Assembly: GCF_001399755.1 (NCBI RefSeq)
Contig: NZ_LJCP01000010.1
Span: 62,001 to 126,000 of the forward strand
Length of the DNA stretch: 64,000 bases
Reading direction: 5' to 3'
Source: Thiohalorhabdus denitrificans
GTDB lineage: Bacteria; Pseudomonadota; Gammaproteobacteria; Thiohalorhabdales; Thiohalorhabdaceae
The notes beneath the pieces are model-generated. The model saw only the letters and a program-made list of their open reading frames with translations, searched no databases and had not been told where the DNA came from. Below, in pieces: positions 26,482 to 35,205 of the stretch; the stretch's first letter is position 1, and the number at the start of each line of letters is the position of its first letter. The position numbers and the translations under genes are program-made.

Positions 26482-26839
26482 CCGAGGCAGGATTGAGGTA
26501 ACCAGTATGTACGCCCGAAGAAGGCTTCGAAAAGGAGTGCGACCGCGTTAGGGGGTTATCCGCCAGAGTAGGGTATCCGGGGGGCGTTTCGGCCCTTCTT
26601 CGCCACCTAAAAGCGTTCCCACACCGTTACCTCTCGACCTGATGGCGTATGCCGGGCATGTTGGTGGATATCCAGGGTGTTTCTCCCAGTGGTGCGGTTT
26701 GCCCACCTACAGCGGTGCTGGGATGAAACCCCTGGCCAACGAATTTACACCCCACACCTAGGCGTCGGCGGACAGAGCACCCGGTTCGTACGTGCCGGGT
26801 CAGGTCCGAAGCCCAGTACACCGAGTTTTGCCGGCTGCC
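26482..26839. other. Divergent intergenic region without a supported gene
   Basis: This lies between the sensor kinase and the MCE operon, so both promoters should be here. I could not identify a convincing sigma-70 or sigma-54 element. Open frames in it read as non-coding. Confidence 0.4.
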
Positions 26840-27622
26840 ATGCTCCGCCTGCTCGAGGCCATCGGTCACAAGGCCCTCACCGCCGCGGCCACCATCCGCG
26901 ATATGACCCGCCTGACCGGTCTGTGCGGTGTGCGCGGGCTGATGCCCGCCAGCTACAACCCCGCCGTGCGCCTGGTGCTGATCCGCCAGCTCTACTATAC
27001 CGGCGTGCAGATCCTGCCCCTGTTTTTGCTCATTACCCTGGGCTTCGGGACCGGTGCGGTGGGGGCAGCGGTTGCGGGTATGCTAAGCATGGATCTGGGG
27101 GACAGGGCAGGGGGGATTGTGGTCAACCTGCTGGTGCTGGAACTGGCCCCGCTAATCACCGCCTTGCTCGTGGCTCTGCGCTCGGGCTCTGCCGTCGATG
27201 CGGAGCTGGCCACCATGGCCCAGAGCGGGGAGCTACGCACCCTGGATCTGTTCGGCATCGACCCCGCCACCTACCTGTTCCTGCCGCGCATCATCGCGAC
27301 CATGGTCACGGTTACGCTGCTGACCGGGATCTGCGCCCTGTTAGTGCTGACCAGCGCCTACCTGTTCCTGTTCTGGTACGTGGAGACCGGCCTCAACACC
27401 TACCTGAACTCGGTGATGGACGCGGTGACGGGGACAGTAGCGGCGCTGGTGCTCGCCAAGAGCCTGCTCCTGGGTTTTCTCGTCGCCTTCATCCCCCTGT
27501 ACAGTGGAATTACCGGGCCGCCCGGCCTGGGCGGGATCTCCGTCGCCGTGCAGCAGGGCATGGTGCGGTTGTTCCTGGCCATTATGCTGGTTGAGGTGCT
27601 GACCCTGGGGGAACTGCTATGA
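26840..27622 (+). CDS. mlaE: MlaE-family ABC permease (MCE lipid transporter)
   Basis: 260 aa with about five to six membrane helices. MlaE signatures are YYTGVQILPLFLLITLGFG, LVLELAPLITALLVALRSGSA and the ELATMAQSGELRTLDLFGIDP coupling loop. The fold moves phospholipids or other hydrophobic substrates between the inner membrane and a periplasmic MCE ring. The frame extends upstream to 26792, but the ATG at 26840 gives the usual MlaE start; no clear ribosome site is seen. Its stop overlaps the next gene's ATG. The name marks the family, since substrate and direction are unknown. Confidence 0.88.
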   Translation: MLRLLEAIGHKALTAAATIRDMTRLTGLCGVRGLMPASYNPAVRLVLIRQLYYTGVQILPLFLLITLGFGTGAVGAAVAGMLSMDLGDRAGGIVVNLLVLELAPLITALLVALRSGSAVDAELATMAQSGELRTLDLFGIDPATYLFLPRIIATMVTVTLLTGICALLVLTSAYLFLFWYVETGLNTYLNSVMDAVTGTVAALVLAKSLLLGFLVAFIPLYSGITGPPGLGGISVAVQQGMVRLFLAIMLVEVLTLGELL

Positions 27623-28083
27623 CTATTGAGTTCCTGCCTGATGCCGAGGTCATCGGCCGCCGACTGGATCAGCTGGCGGCGGCCGGTCCGGTGGCGCCGG
27701 TGGCCCCCGATGTTCCCCTCCTTGCCAGCCTCTCGGCCCAGGAGAACCTGGAGCTGATAGGTGCCTTCCACGGCCACCTTACCGCCCGCGACCTGACGGC
27801 GAACGCCTCGGTAACGCTGGCGCGTCTCGGCATCGCTTATTGCGCCCCCCGCCACCGGGACGAGCTGACCGCGCGCGAGGCCTTTCTGGTCCAGCTGGGC
27901 CGGGCCGCCATGCGCCCCCAGGCGATGACGGTCCTGGTCACGCCCTTTTCCCAGGTGCCGGAACTGGATTCCGACGGCCCCATCGAGGAGGCCCTGGCCG
28001 CCCTCGAGGTGACGCGCTTTTGCATCCTTGACTATCCCAGCAACCGGAACCTGTATTCCAGTCTGACCGAGGCCACGCCGTGA
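27619..28083 (+). CDS. Truncated ABC-ATPase-like protein lacking Walker A (MCE operon)
   Basis: 154 aa in the position normally held by the MlaF ATPase, overlapping mlaE and the MCE gene by 4 bases each. It aligns by eye with the second half of an ABC ATPase. PLLASLSAQENLELI (33-47) resembles the stretch after the Q-loop. DELTAREAFLVQLGRAA (81-97) resembles the signature helix with LSGGQ replaced by LTARE. AMTVLVTPFSQ (102-112) resembles Walker B with the DE lost. There is no P-loop and no room for one. It cannot hydrolyse ATP by the normal mechanism, yet the reading frame is intact and coupled, so it looks selected rather than decaying. Its function is unknown. Confidence 0.7.
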   Translation: MTIEFLPDAEVIGRRLDQLAAAGPVAPVAPDVPLLASLSAQENLELIGAFHGHLTARDLTANASVTLARLGIAYCAPRHRDELTAREAFLVQLGRAAMRPQAMTVLVTPFSQVPELDSDGPIEEALAALEVTRFCILDYPSNRNLYSSLTEATP

Positions 28084-29015
28084 ATCAGCGAGGGATCCGC
28101 ATCGCCGTCGGGCTGTTCCTCGTCATCACCCTGGGGGTGATGGTCGGCGCGGCGGGTTATGTCCTCTACCGCAAAGGGCTATTCGAGGAGGAGGTCGCGT
28201 TCACGCTCGTGGCCGAATCCGGCCAGCATCTGTCGCAGGGAATGCCGGTGGTCTTCCAGGGGCACGAGCTGGGATCGGTCCAGCAGGTGGACCTCAAACG
28301 GCAGGGCCACGTGGAGGCCCGGATCGCCATCCCAGCGGACCAGCACCGCTGGTTGCGAACCTCCAGCACCTTCACCGTCGAGAACCCCTTGCTCGGCAAC
28401 GCCCGCATCCTGGTTGCCACCCCGGACATGGACGCGCCGCTGCTTCCCAAAGACGCGCGCGTCCGGACCCGCCTTCAGGACGATTTCAACCAGCTCATCG
28501 AGGAGGCGCAAACGGTCGTCCAGGATCTGCAGCGAATTGGCGCCCATCTCCGCGAGATAACCGGCAAGGTCGCCGATCCCGAAGGCGATTTCAGCCAGAC
28601 AATGGCCCATCTGGAGCGTTTCAGCGGGCGGCTGGCCGACGAGCCCGCGCTGCTCACCCTGCTCACCGACAACCCGGCCACCCCGCGTCACTTCAACGAG
28701 GTTCTGGCCCGCGCCGAGGCCGGCACCGGCGAGGCCGAGGCCACAATTGCAGAGCTGCGCCAGACCATCGCCCGCACCCGGACCCGTCTTCTCAGCAAGG
28801 GGGGCACGGTCTCCCGGGTGGACGCGCTGCTGGAGGACCTCCAGGGCAAGCTCAAGGTCCTGGATCCGGCCGTGCACGAGGCAGCCGCCTCCACCCAAGG
28901 GCTGGAGGAAATGCGCGACGAGCTCCGGATCACCATCGAGGACACCCGCGCCATCCTTCGGCGGGTCGAAGCCGTTCTGGGTGAGGAGCCCTCCACCGAG
29001 GTTCCGTTGCCATGA
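28080..29015 (+). CDS. MlaD-type MCE-domain protein
   Basis: 311 aa. One N-terminal membrane helix (about 9-30) anchors it in the inner membrane. A single MCE domain follows (about 38-125, with GQHLSQGMPVVFQGHELGSVQQV). The C-terminal 170 residues are largely helical and rich in Glu, Leu and Arg, as in proteins whose helices form a tunnel across the periplasm. It is longer than Escherichia coli MlaD (183 aa) and more like the single-MCE proteins of other lipid transporters. The GTG start overlaps the previous stop. Confidence 0.88.
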   Translation: MNQRGIRIAVGLFLVITLGVMVGAAGYVLYRKGLFEEEVAFTLVAESGQHLSQGMPVVFQGHELGSVQQVDLKRQGHVEARIAIPADQHRWLRTSSTFTVENPLLGNARILVATPDMDAPLLPKDARVRTRLQDDFNQLIEEAQTVVQDLQRIGAHLREITGKVADPEGDFSQTMAHLERFSGRLADEPALLTLLTDNPATPRHFNEVLARAEAGTGEAEATIAELRQTIARTRTRLLSKGGTVSRVDALLEDLQGKLKVLDPAVHEAAASTQGLEEMRDELRITIEDTRAILRRVEAVLGEEPSTEVPLP

Positions 29016-29716
29016 AGCCCGGATTCCGGCTGGTGCCGGTCCTGATGGCGGTGCTCGTGGCCGGCTGCCTGGGCGGCCCCCCGGCCGGACCGGCGTGGCG
29101 AATTCGGGCGGCCGAGGCCACCGAGGCCTACTACACGGCCATGCTAACCGGTGACGGCCAGCGCGCCGGCAGCAGTCTGCGCCGGGCCCTGGAGGCGGCC
29201 AGTGCCAGCGACGATCTGACTCCGTTGGCGCGGGTCCACCTGGGCCGGGCCGCCATGCAGGTGGCCCTGCGGCGCGAGGCCGAGCTGGCACGGACCGGCG
29301 AGCTCATCGCCCTTGCCGGGGACCGGGATCTGGAGGCCTATCGGCGCTTCCTGGCGGGCACTCCGGAGGCCGGAGATGCCGGGCTCCTGCCCCCGGAGCT
29401 GATGGATCCGGCCCGGCACCTGCGGGCGGATCGGCCCAGCGCACTGGCCAAAAGCGTCGCCGCCATCGAGGCTCCCCGCATGCGGGTAGTGGCCGCCGCG
29501 GTGGGCCACCGCAGCTACCCCGGCCGCCGGGCCTTCGCCGATGCGGCGGTGGCGGCGGCCTCTCCGAAAGGCTGGCGGGGGGTGCTGCTGGCGTGGCTGC
29601 CGGTGCAGGCCGAGGCGGCCAAGCGCGCGGGCGATACGGCCGAGGCGGCGGCCATCCGCAGCCGCCTGCGCTGGCTGCAGAACCCCCGGGCCGGCCGGTC
29701 AGACGGGGCGGAGTAG
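29012..29716 (+). CDS. Lipoprotein of the MCE operon
   Basis: 234 aa. A signal peptide ends in the lipobox LVAGC, with C19 the likely lipidated residue. The mature part is alpha-helical and Ala/Arg rich with paired helices suggestive of TPR-like repeats (for example ARVHLGRAAMQVALRREAEL). It overlaps the MCE gene by 4 bases and ends the operon. By position it is the likely outer-membrane partner of the MCE tunnel, comparable in role to lipoproteins such as PqiC. I see no sequence match to PqiC or MlaA, and the product is otherwise unrecognised. Confidence 0.75.
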   Translation: MKPGFRLVPVLMAVLVAGCLGGPPAGPAWRIRAAEATEAYYTAMLTGDGQRAGSSLRRALEAASASDDLTPLARVHLGRAAMQVALRREAELARTGELIALAGDRDLEAYRRFLAGTPEAGDAGLLPPELMDPARHLRADRPSALAKSVAAIEAPRMRVVAAAVGHRSYPGRRAFADAAVAAASPKGWRGVLLAWLPVQAEAAKRAGDTAEAAAIRSRLRWLQNPRAGRSDGAE

Positions 29717-31363: not shown

Positions 31364-31738
31364 ATGGAAGAGTCCCAGATTGATTTCGCCATCGTCATGA
31401 CCAGCGGACCGGATACCCCGAAGCGCCTCGCTTCCCCGTTCTTCCTGGCCGCCACCTCCGCCGCGGAGGAAATGAGCGTGGTGGTCTATTTCACCGGGCA
31501 GGGAACCGTTCTGCTCAAGAAGGGGGAGGCGGAGAACGCCTATCCCAAGGAGGGCGGCAAGTCGGTGAAGCACTTCATGGACCAGGCTCTTGGCAACGGC
31601 GCCCAGTTCGTCGCCTGCAAGGCCTCCCTGGACCTGAACGAAATCTCCCCCGACGACCTGGCCTTCGATGTCCCTATGGTGGGCGTTGCCGAGGCGCTGC
31701 CCTACCTGGAGGCCTCCAAGAAGCTCATATCCTTCTAA
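31364..31738 (+). CDS. DsrE/F-like small protein
   Basis: 124 aa. A DsrE-type alpha/beta fold is suggested by the N-terminal beta strand IDFAIVMTSGPDTPKR, the helix FFLAATSAAEEM and the strand SVVVYFTGQGTVLL. Family members bind or relay sulfane sulfur. The single cysteine in FVACKASL is at about position 85, near the active Cys of DsrE, so a sulfur-relay role is possible but unproven. A clear AAGGAGCAGG ribosome site precedes the ATG. It stands alone, convergent with the GH100 gene. Confidence 0.75.
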   Translation: MEESQIDFAIVMTSGPDTPKRLASPFFLAATSAAEEMSVVVYFTGQGTVLLKKGEAENAYPKEGGKSVKHFMDQALGNGAQFVACKASLDLNEISPDDLAFDVPMVGVAEALPYLEASKKLISF

Positions 31739-31804: not shown

Positions 31805-33199
31805 CTAAATGGCGCACTTCTCCCCGGCTATGTCGTCGGCGAAGGCGATCCAGTCCAGGGAGGAGGGGTCCGCCAGGAGGCGGTCGGCGAGCAGCACGCC
31901 CGCCACCGTCCAGGTCTGGAAGCGGCGGGCCTGTTTGCCCACCAGCTGCCCGCGTTGGCCGTCGAAGTACTCCGGCCATTCCCTCCCGGGCAGGCGCTCC
32001 GCGGCCGCGGCCAGGGCCGGTTCCGTCAGGGCGGTGGCGCCGCGCAGCTGCTCGGCGGCCGCCAGCAGCCACAGGAAGACCGGCCAGCTCCCCCCGTTGT
32101 GGTAGGACCAGGGGACGTTCTTGGGGTCGCTTCCGGTCACCGTGCGCCAGTCCTGGCCCTCCAGGGCGGGGTAGCACAGCTTCATGGCCATCTCCCCGAT
32201 GAGGTCCTCCGCCCGGGCCTCGATCAGGGTCAGGATGGAACGGGCCTGGCTCCCGCCGGCCAGGCCGGAGAGAACGGCCAGCAGGTTGCCCTGGGTGAAA
32301 AAGCGGAAGTCCATGCGCGACGGGCCCAGATTGCCCGCCAGGTAGCCCCCGGGGTCGGGCAGCCATTCCAGCAGCCAGGCGGGAATGGAGTCGGGAACGA
32401 CGTTGAAGGCATTCACCGCGTTGTCCCCGTACTCCTCCGTCCTGTAGCGGTACATGCGGTTGAGGGTGGGGAAATCCAGCCAGTAGTAGGTGCGCACGTA
32501 GTGCCCCAGCTTGCCGAGGCGGTCGGCCACCGCCTCCCGGTAGGGCCGGCTGTCGGGGCCGTCCCCGAGCAGCTCCTCGGCGGCGCGCAGGGCCATGAAA
32601 AAGAGCGCCTGCACCTCCAGGGGATAGCCGTATACCCCCAGGCGACGGTCCACCATGAAGGAGCCGTCGGGGACCAGGAGGGTGGGGTACATGTCGAACC
32701 GGCTGATAAGGCAAAGCTCCAGGATGCCCCGGATGGCTTCCTGGAAGGCGGGGGTCGCGGCCAGCTCGCGGTCGCCGGTGGCGCGGGTGTAGGCCCGAAG
32801 CAGGTACAGCCACCACAGGCTGGCGTCCACCGCCGCCACCCGGCCGATGGCGTGGCCGCCGAAGTCCGGGATCAGCGATCGGCCGTCCTCCGCCACCTTG
32901 AAGCTGGCGGGAATCAGGCCGGCCCCCGGCCGGTAGCAGTCCATGGAGCGCTTGCGGGCCTGTAGCTCGCGGGTCCGCTCCAGGAAATGGCGCACCATGG
33001 CCGGCTCGCCCTCGGCCAGGTAGTAGAGGGCCACGGGAACGAAATCCCGCACGAAGACCTGGTCGTAATTGAGGGTGGCGGCGTCGGGGTCCGTGCAGGC
33101 GATGGTGCCGACGGGCTCGCCGCCGTAGCGCACCACCGCTGCCTCCATCAGGCTTCGCGCTTGGCCGGTATCGAGGTGGCCGGAGCTTACCGTTCCCAT
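31805..33199 (-). CDS. GH100 neutral/alkaline invertase homologue
   Basis: 464 aa. Very close to the plant/cyanobacterial neutral-alkaline invertase pattern: NYDQVFVRDFVP near 43-54, IPDFGGHAIGRVAAVDASLWW, MVDRRLGVYGYPLEVQALFF, AVNAFNVVPDSIPAW, ARMDFRFFTQGN-like SRMDFRFFTQGN, and SDPKNVPWSYHNGGSWPVFLW. The first aspartate in VRDF and a later catalytic glutamate region match the (alpha/alpha)6 barrel. Enzymes of this family hydrolyse sucrose to glucose and fructose in the cytoplasm. GGAGGGG precedes the ATG. No sucrose synthesis or uptake genes are adjacent, so it may act on internally made sucrose or another glycoside used as osmolyte. Confidence 0.88.
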   Translation of the reverse strand: MGTVSSGHLDTGQARSLMEAAVVRYGGEPVGTIACTDPDAATLNYDQVFVRDFVPVALYYLAEGEPAMVRHFLERTRELQARKRSMDCYRPGAGLIPASFKVAEDGRSLIPDFGGHAIGRVAAVDASLWWLYLLRAYTRATGDRELAATPAFQEAIRGILELCLISRFDMYPTLLVPDGSFMVDRRLGVYGYPLEVQALFFMALRAAEELLGDGPDSRPYREAVADRLGKLGHYVRTYYWLDFPTLNRMYRYRTEEYGDNAVNAFNVVPDSIPAWLLEWLPDPGGYLAGNLGPSRMDFRFFTQGNLLAVLSGLAGGSQARSILTLIEARAEDLIGEMAMKLCYPALEGQDWRTVTGSDPKNVPWSYHNGGSWPVFLWLLAAAEQLRGATALTEPALAAAAERLPGREWPEYFDGQRGQLVGKQARRFQTWTVAGVLLADRLLADPSSLDWIAFADDIAGEKCAI

Positions 33200-33570: not shown

Positions 33571-35205
33571 ATGAGTGAGCGACGGTTGCGGATCTCGGGG
33601 ATGACGTGCTCCAGTTGCGCGGAGCACGTCCAGCGGGCCCTGGAAGCCTTGGGGGGCGTGACCGCCACGGTCCGTTATCCCGAGGGAACCGCATGGGTGA
33701 GCGCCCCCGCGGAAATGGCCGACGAGCGGCTGGTGGAGGCTGTTCGCGCCTCGGGATACGGCGCGGAAATAGCGGCGGAGCAGGCGGAGGCCGAGCAAAA
33801 AGGCCAGGAGGCCGGCCTCCATGTGGCCGTGGTGGGCGGAGGCTCGGCGGCCTTTGCCGGGGCCATCCGGGCGGCGGATGAAGGGGCCCGGGTGACCCTG
33901 ATCGAGCGCGGGATCCTGGGGGGGACCTGCGTCAACGTGGGCTGCGTACCCTCCAAGATCCGGCTCAAGGCCGCCGAGGCCGCCCACCGTCCCGGGCACC
34001 ACCCGTTCGCGGGTGTCGCCCATCGCCGCCCCGAGGTGGACCTGCCCGCCATGGTTCAGCAGCAACAGGACCAGGTGGCCGCGTTGCGCCGGGCCAAGTA
34101 CCAGAACATCCTGGCAGCTCGGCCGGAGATCACCCACATAAGCGGCACGGCCCGGTTCGAGGATGGGGCCACCCTTCGGGTAACCGGGCCCGAGGGCGAG
34201 GGCACCCGGATACGCCCCGACCGGATCCTGGTGGCCACCGGCTCCCGCCCCGCCATCCCCCGGATTCCCGGACTCGCGGAAAGCCCGTACTGGACCTCCA
34301 CGGAGGCCCTCGCGGCCGAAGCGCTTCCCGAGCACCTTCTGGTCCTGGGGGGCGGCTATATCGGCTGCGAGCTGGGCCAGGCCTTCGCCCGGCTGGGAAG
34401 CCGGGTGACCATCCTTGCCCGCAGAGGCCTGCTGGCCGGCCACGATCCGGAGCTGGGGGCCGTACTGGAGTCCGTGTTCCGGGAGGAGGGCATCCAGGTC
34501 CGAACCGGGACCGAGGTCCGACAGGTACGCTACGAGGGGGGATTCGCCCTGGAGACCACCGACGGGGAAATCCTGGAGGGCGACCGGCTGCTGGTGGCGA
34601 CGGGCCGAACCCCGAACACGGACGACCTCGGGCTCGAGCAGGCGGGCATCGCTACCGACGGCAGCGGCGCCATCCGGGTGGACCACCGGTTGGCCACCTC
34701 GGCCCCCCATGTCTTCGCCGCCGGGGATTGCACAACCCAGCCCCGATTGGTGTACGTGGCCGCCGCCGCGGGAACCCGGGCGGCCGCCAACATGCTGGGC
34801 GGGAAGGAGGCCTTGGACCTTTTCCGGGTGCCGCAGGTGGTCTTCACCGACCCGCAGGTGGCGACCGTGGGCCTCACGGAGCGCGAGGCGGCCGACCAGG
34901 GGCTGGCCGTGACCAGCCGGACCCTGTCCCTGGACAACGTTCCCCGGGCCCTGGCGAATTTCGATACCCGGGGTATGGTCAAGCTGGTGGCCGAGGAGGC
35001 CAGCGGCCGGATCCTGGGGGCCCAGATCGCCGCCGAAGGCGCGGGGGAGGTGGTCCAGAGCGCGGCGTTGGCCATGGATGCGGGCCTCACCGTTGGTCAG
35101 CTGGGTGACCGTCTGTTCCCCTACCTGACCATGGCCGAGGGCCTCAAGCTGTGCGCCCAGACCTTCACCCGCGACGTGACCGAGCTGTCCTGTTGCGCGG
35201 GATGA
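33571..35205 (+). CDS. merA: Mercuric reductase
   Basis: 544 aa. Cytoplasmic flavoenzyme that reduces Hg(II) to volatile Hg(0) with NADPH. One N-terminal heavy-metal-associated domain has GMTCSSC (C13, C16). The FAD site is VAVVGGGSAAFAGA; the redox disulfide is GTCVNVGCVPSK (C120, C125), and the NADPH site is VLGGGYIGCELG. The C-terminal vicinal pair C541-C542 (LSCCAG) delivers Hg to the active site. All diagnostic residues are present. It is the first gene behind the MerR operator, with merB following after 28 bases. Confidence 0.97.
   Translation: MSERRLRISGMTCSSCAEHVQRALEALGGVTATVRYPEGTAWVSAPAEMADERLVEAVRASGYGAEIAAEQAEAEQKGQEAGLHVAVVGGGSAAFAGAIRAADEGARVTLIERGILGGTCVNVGCVPSKIRLKAAEAAHRPGHHPFAGVAHRRPEVDLPAMVQQQQDQVAALRRAKYQNILAARPEITHISGTARFEDGATLRVTGPEGEGTRIRPDRILVATGSRPAIPRIPGLAESPYWTSTEALAAEALPEHLLVLGGGYIGCELGQAFARLGSRVTILARRGLLAGHDPELGAVLESVFREEGIQVRTGTEVRQVRYEGGFALETTDGEILEGDRLLVATGRTPNTDDLGLEQAGIATDGSGAIRVDHRLATSAPHVFAAGDCTTQPRLVYVAAAAGTRAAANMLGGKEALDLFRVPQVVFTDPQVATVGLTEREAADQGLAVTSRTLSLDNVPRALANFDTRGMVKLVAEEASGRILGAQIAAEGAGEVVQSAALAMDAGLTVGQLGDRLFPYLTMAEGLKLCAQTFTRDVTELSCCAG

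Follow-up and report, generated by a model that had tools for sequence, protein, structure and literature searches.

MlaFEDB of E. coli, the system for maintenance of lipid asymmetry, is a close point of comparison for the operon analyzed here, and its MlaF ATPase is contained in structures 6XBD and 6XGZ. In ABC transporters, the core of the ATPase holds the coupling helix of the permease. In E. coli MlaE, this helix links TM2 and TM3 and contacts MlaF (PMC7790496). The mycobacterial Mce1 and Mce4 systems share MceG, a complete and active ATPase that is encoded separately, in trans (PMC9947336). In the Pqi and Let systems the membrane subunit has no ATPase domain, and for Brucella a homologue of MlaF, MpcF, has been described as a conserved ABC ATPase (PMC12436622). 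In the open-access literature we found no degenerate or miniature ATPase and no ATPase-less MlaE-type operon described for MCE systems, nor any account of a transporter whose subunits include a conserved mini-ATPase lacking the P-loop, in agreement with a sequence-only reading of this locus that knew of no role for such a protein.

The window, which is the whole 64,000-nucleotide stretch of Thiohalorhabdus denitrificans DNA that was analyzed, contains a tight operon with the gene order mlaE, mini-MlaF, mlaD and lipoprotein (Table 1). As in MlaFEDB, MlaE and MlaD homologues were identified in one operon with an MlaF fold at the place of mlaF, but no gene for a functional ATPase subunit, MlaB or MlaC was found in it, the ATPase motifs are nonfunctional, MlaD has a long helical C-terminus, and a TPR-like lipoprotein comes next. 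The operon resembles those of Mce1 and Mce4 in having no active ATPase gene of its own, but unlike them it encodes a dead mini-ATPase itself. With Brucella MpcEFDA it shares the short MCE operon and the long MlaD-like protein, whereas MpcF is described as a conserved ABC ATPase. Pqi (PqiABC) and Let (LetAB) are similar in that MCE transport has no ATPase domain in the membrane subunit, and Pqi also has a lipoprotein partner; however, PqiA and LetA are unrelated to MlaE, and PqiB and LetB stack several MCE domains, whereas the window operon, with MlaE and a single MlaD domain, is not of this type and would have reached its ATP-free state by loss from an ABC system.

Table 1 Features of the mini-MlaF operon in the window
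Feature	Position	Strand	Remarks
MlaE-type permease, 260 aa	26840..27622	+	PF02405, E 1e-39; coupling-helix motif retained
Coupling-helix position in the cytoplasmic loop between TM2 and TM3 of MlaE, AVDAELATMAQSGELRTLD	27191..27247	+	alignment with canonical MlaE; by homology only
Mini-MlaF, 154-aa degenerate ABC ATPase subunit	27619..28083	+	ATG at 27619, stop ends at 28083
Residues 6-8 (LPD) at the expected P-loop (Walker A) site, between strand 2-5 and helix 9-22	27634..27642	+	AF2 secondary structure and VIA alignment range
Post-Q-loop segment PLLASLSAQENL	27715..27750	+	among the best-conserved parts of the family; P33, L34 and N43 invariant in 16 sequences
Signature-motif site, LTAREA for LSGG[QM]	27865..27882	+	
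Walker B site, TVLVTP, neither acidic residue present	27928..27945	+	family consensus ILIDRP
H-loop site, family motif ILDYxWNxxLY instead, here RFCILDYPSNRNLY	28015..28056	+	D138, Y139 and Y146 invariant
MlaD-type protein: TM helix, single MCE domain, long helical C-terminus	28080..29015	+	PF02470, E 1.7e-7
Predicted lipoprotein, all-alpha, TPR-like solenoid	29012..29716	+	conserved partner in this operon type

The permease has an alternative GTG start at 26792. The lipoprotein, whose signal and lipobox were assigned by eye, is 30-34% identical to lipoproteins from three ATPase-less operons. Its AF2 model (pLDDT 91.4) contains helices only, and comparison with PDB structures gave no significant match, the weak matches being mostly TPR proteins.

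The sequence-only reading had placed a 154-aa protein where MlaF should be, with the layout of the C-terminal half of an ABC ATPase. The ORF is at the coordinates it gave, flanked by MlaE (PF02405) and MlaD (PF02470). Pfam gave no ABC match for the window protein alone, and Pfam and NCBIfam together assigned it to no confident family; of the 16 members of the mini family, three were matched by ABC_tran, with a best E of 0.075. When a profile of the family was compared with PDB sequences, ABC ATPases were matched at E 1.6e-9. The AlphaFold2 model of mini-MlaF, made with the family alignment as input, had a pLDDT of 92.7 and a pTM of 0.88, and its Foldseek and VIA-align matches were ABC ATPases, E. 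coli MlaF among them, so the predicted structure bears out the similarity that had been read from the letters. Against MlaF (6xbd_I), VIA aligned 150 of 154 residues (Z 14.2, rmsd 2.8), with model residues 1-154 on MlaF 36-230. Relative to that range mini-MlaF is without the P-loop and about 45 residues, including internal stretches, and the model begins with a strand, a loop of three residues where the P-loop would be, and a helix, after which comes the core, extending from the Q-loop as far as the H-loop strand. Thus the ABC core of the earlier description stood but its extent did not, because the model spans MlaF 36-230 and, by secondary structure, keeps both the strand before the P-loop and the helix after it. 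A profile built from the 15 other family members found mini-MlaF as its sole match among 936 frames of the window (E 7.9e-22, 73 bits), and the best of the shuffled copies scored 6.9 bits. Mini-MlaF is a genuine ABC ATPase homologue, a miniature MlaF without the catalytic motifs.

The motif losses that had been read from the sequence were all found. Walker A (GxxxxGK[ST]) is absent, its P-loop being deleted according to the motif alignment and the AF2 secondary structure, and the signature LSGG[QM] is replaced, LTARE standing for LSGGQ. At Walker B, the window copy has VLVTP against LDEP, so that Val and Thr replace Asp and the catalytic Glu. Most members of the family still have an acidic residue at the Asp position (ILIDRP or ILIERP) and the catalytic Glu is replaced throughout, in most members by Arg, so loss of both acids is peculiar to the window copy. 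The window copy belongs to the mini-MlaF family as defined here, namely a P-loop-less ABC homologue of 130-190 aa that carries PLxxxLxxxEN and DYxWN motifs and is encoded between mlaE and mlaD, with a TPR-like lipoprotein after mlaD.

With the mini-MlaF protein alone as the query against genome contigs, no relative was found; in relatives, this query matched only ABC ATPases, weakly, and one weak match led to a further operon. The window MlaD as the query in 94 relatives gave three operons of the form mlaE, ATPase-like gene, mlaD, lipoprotein, and when 369 genomes of the class were searched with a profile, about 18 operons of this form scored clearly apart from ordinary MCE operons, and three ATPase-less operons were also retrieved. 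The window MlaD was then aligned with the MlaDs of three ATPase-less operons, and a scan of 84,980 genomes with this alignment returned 363 relatives. Among the best 80 of these 363, a mini-MlaF homologue of about 146-188 aa lay between mlaE and mlaD in 16 (that of L059 was read from an internal start), mlaE was directly followed by mlaD in 63, and one contig was cut. The distance from the MlaE stop to the MlaD start was 404-538 nt with the mini gene, compared with -3 to 199 nt without it. A further copy in the complete single-contig genome G569 brought the operons with this gene order, which the sequence-only reading had proposed to look for, to 17 besides the window; the comparison operons are mostly from metagenome-assembled genomes. 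Hosts of the family are Thiobacillaceae, Hydrogenophilales and other Betaproteobacteria, Syntrophaceae (Thermodesulfobacteriota) and the gammaproteobacterium of the window, and the family is rare, being present in 2 of the 398 genomes that were sampled from the phylum. The window MlaD had no match in two same-genus genomes, G001 and G002, one of which is 82% complete, and on this count the genus has a patchy distribution of the operon.

Two other kinds of operon are related to those of the mini family. In a gammaproteobacterial set (L012/L023, L017, L018, L019, L025-L037), mlaE is followed by a full-length degenerate ATPase gene, mlaD and a lipoprotein gene, the lipoprotein often TPR-like. LSGG[QM] was found in none of the 15 readable ATPases of the gammaproteobacterial full-length relatives and GxxxxGK[ST] in four (L020, L021, L035, L037), while the ATPases of the other MCE operons from the same search kept all motifs. 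The degenerate ATPase of L028 (G335:C74, rc 577-1161 and 693-1496) is divided between two frames after the Walker A region, which may be a sequencing error or real decay. The second kind, about 60 Burkholderiales-type operons among the best 80 of the 363 relatives, has no ATPase gene at all. Such MlaE-MlaD-lipoprotein operons occur in Polaromonas, Ramlibacter, Hydrogenophaga, Massilia and others (L054-L058, L062, L065, L115 and others, L115 being the locus of Polaromonas sp. JS666), and these systems merit study in their own right.

A tree of MlaE plus MlaD was rooted with canonical systems, and four ATPase states (canonical, degenerate full-length, mini and none) were placed on it, the mini group having been named before the tree was built. 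The four states required three changes, which is the minimum, and a tree of MlaD only also gave three. The ATPase-less operons group in a single clade (100/100), which is nested inside a grade of mini operons, and monophyly of all mini operons was rejected (p-AU 0.00016). The window operon is a long branch within the mini-plus-none clade, at 100/100. At the base, a node with support of 84/85 joins part of the degenerate full-length set to the mini set, the base of the MlaD-only tree is not resolved and may join all degenerate full-length operons, and the sequences of the mini proteins are no closer to degenerate than to canonical ATPases; the order canonical, degenerate full-length, mini is thus weakly supported, and the mini form would have descended from a signature-less full-length form.

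We then used the ratio of pairwise identity in the coupling helix to that in the rest of MlaE. This ratio was 1.38 in canonical, 1.34 in degenerate full-length and 1.33 in mini operons, compared with 0.44 in ATPase-less ones, and among pairs matched on identity elsewhere in MlaE (0.30-0.50), coupling-helix identity was 0.52 in mini compared with 0.16 in ATPase-less operons. The ATPase-less operons were themselves split, with 1.15 in three early branches and 0.43 in the others; L054 and L055 are among the early branches in which the helix has not decayed. By these ratios, the dock of the ATPase is kept for as long as there is a dead subunit and decays following loss of its gene. This pattern is the best evidence that mini-MlaF docks on the MlaE coupling helix, as we infer from conservation, and likewise the best evidence that the ATPase-less systems work without a trans ATPase.

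Our main reading, to which we give a probability of roughly 0.7, is that mini-MlaF is catalytically dead and has been retained for its structural role beside MlaE, in an MCE lineage that lost ATP hydrolysis. Mini-MlaF would be a miniature, nucleotide-free descendant of MlaF, retained in an MCE transporter as a structural subunit: the N-terminal beta subdomain, P-loop, signature, catalytic glutamate and H-loop histidine are lost, and the core that in ABC transporters holds the permease coupling helix is kept. It may cap the coupling helix and keep the MlaE dimer in shape, and this dimer would sit below an MlaD tube that reaches the outer-membrane lipoprotein. Lipid, the presumed substrate, would then move without ATP hydrolysis, as proposed for the Pqi- and Let-type MCE systems. 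For the lineage as a whole, we lean slightly towards a stepwise change from ABC transporter to ATP-independent conduit that is still legible in living genomes, from loss of the signature, through loss of the other motifs and shrinkage to a mini-ATPase that merely holds the permease, to disappearance of the gene, after which the coupling helix decays. Homologous permeases with a working, a dead, a miniature and an absent ATPase form a natural series in which the role of the ATPase can be tested directly and its structural function told apart from its catalytic one. The series also offers compact systems for structure work and reconstitution, and bears on the mechanism and direction of lipid movement in MCE systems and on what requires ATP.

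An ATP-free permease was one of the two mechanisms offered by the sequence-only reading, and it is favored by the close relatives in which the ATPase gene has gone altogether and the MlaE coupling-helix motif was lost afterwards. The other, in which an adaptor lets MlaE borrow an ATPase, is unlikely. Here mini-MlaF would help MlaE to recruit an active MlaF encoded elsewhere, possibly with a mini subunit on one MlaE coupling helix and a canonical subunit on the other, and transport would still be driven by ATP. The window genome does have two other Mla operons, whose canonical mlaF genes keep all motifs, and the conserved coupling helix of mini-bearing MlaE is what an active trans ATPase would also predict. 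MceG provides a precedent, with an EExDA loop as the proposed docking site (PMC9947336). However, the fall from 1.33 to 0.44 on loss of the mini gene is what would be expected if mini-MlaF were the sole partner of the helix, and the signature is gone in all full-length relatives, so ATP use was probably abandoned earlier.

In place of the H-loop region, the mini family has a new motif that is strongly conserved, I-x-DY-x-W-N-x-x-x-Y, and the window copy has DYPSN where the family has DYxWN. Such a motif would suit a new job for mini-MlaF, with MlaE as its anchor and DYxWN serving regulation or the binding of a cytoplasmic partner or ligand; but no partner was found, and the derived operons without the mini gene keep the rest under selection, which leaves this quite improbable.

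Selection was analyzed with Nei-Gojobori estimates in pairs of close relatives within the family; dS was saturated in some pairs, and the window copy is a single long branch. The mini-ATPase gave dN/dS of 0.08-0.37 in these pairs, comparable to the 0.02-0.33 of its operon partners MlaE, MlaD and lipoprotein; thus the mini-ATPase family is under purifying selection, as are the ATPase-less operons. The full-length dead ATPases of G045 and G185 gave 0.085. A decaying mlaF pseudogene would account for the loss of all catalytic motifs and for loss of the gene in some lineages, but this explanation was rejected as highly improbable, because the frames are open at a constant spacing (404-538 nt in 16 operons), dN/dS is well below 1, 15 columns are invariant across two phyla (16 sequences) and the model is compact and confident. 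The argument of the sequence-only reading against simple decay therefore holds.

The overlaps of start and stop codons that it had noted are 4 nt on each side, ATGA (27619-27622) with mlaE and GTGA (28080-28083) with mlaD, and the frame is intact. GC by codon position in the ORF (0.73/0.48/0.83) agrees with the adjoining genes. No hidden full ATPase frame was found at the locus, where the ORF begins at the MlaE stop, and because of the overlaps at both junctions there is no space for an upstream Walker A segment. A sequencing or assembly error that hides a full ATPase, for which nothing but the short length speaks, is refuted by these overlaps and by the mini form in 17 other operons, one of them in a complete single-contig genome, and its probability is negligible.

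Sulfur-related genes were observed near several of the operons. A Sulf_transp (YeeE/YedE, PF04143) membrane protein is encoded downstream of the mini-ATPase operon at nine loci (L052, L060, L066, L076, L109, L117, L084, L105 and L111), with both Thiobacillaceae-type and Syntrophaceae represented, and was absent from the 12 ATPase-less loci that were checked for it. The mini-ATPase operon may thus have a link with sulfur compounds; a literature search on MCE plus sulfur oxidation found no papers. DsrE/DsrF-like proteins are sulfur-related in many bacteria, and one (PF02635, 5.9e-11) is encoded at 31364-31738 of the window, about 1.6 kb downstream of the operon. It is followed by a GH100-family invertase on the minus strand at 31808-33199 (PF12899, 1.1e-191) and, on the plus strand at 33571-35205, by a mercuric reductase-like disulfide reductase with an N-terminal HMA domain.
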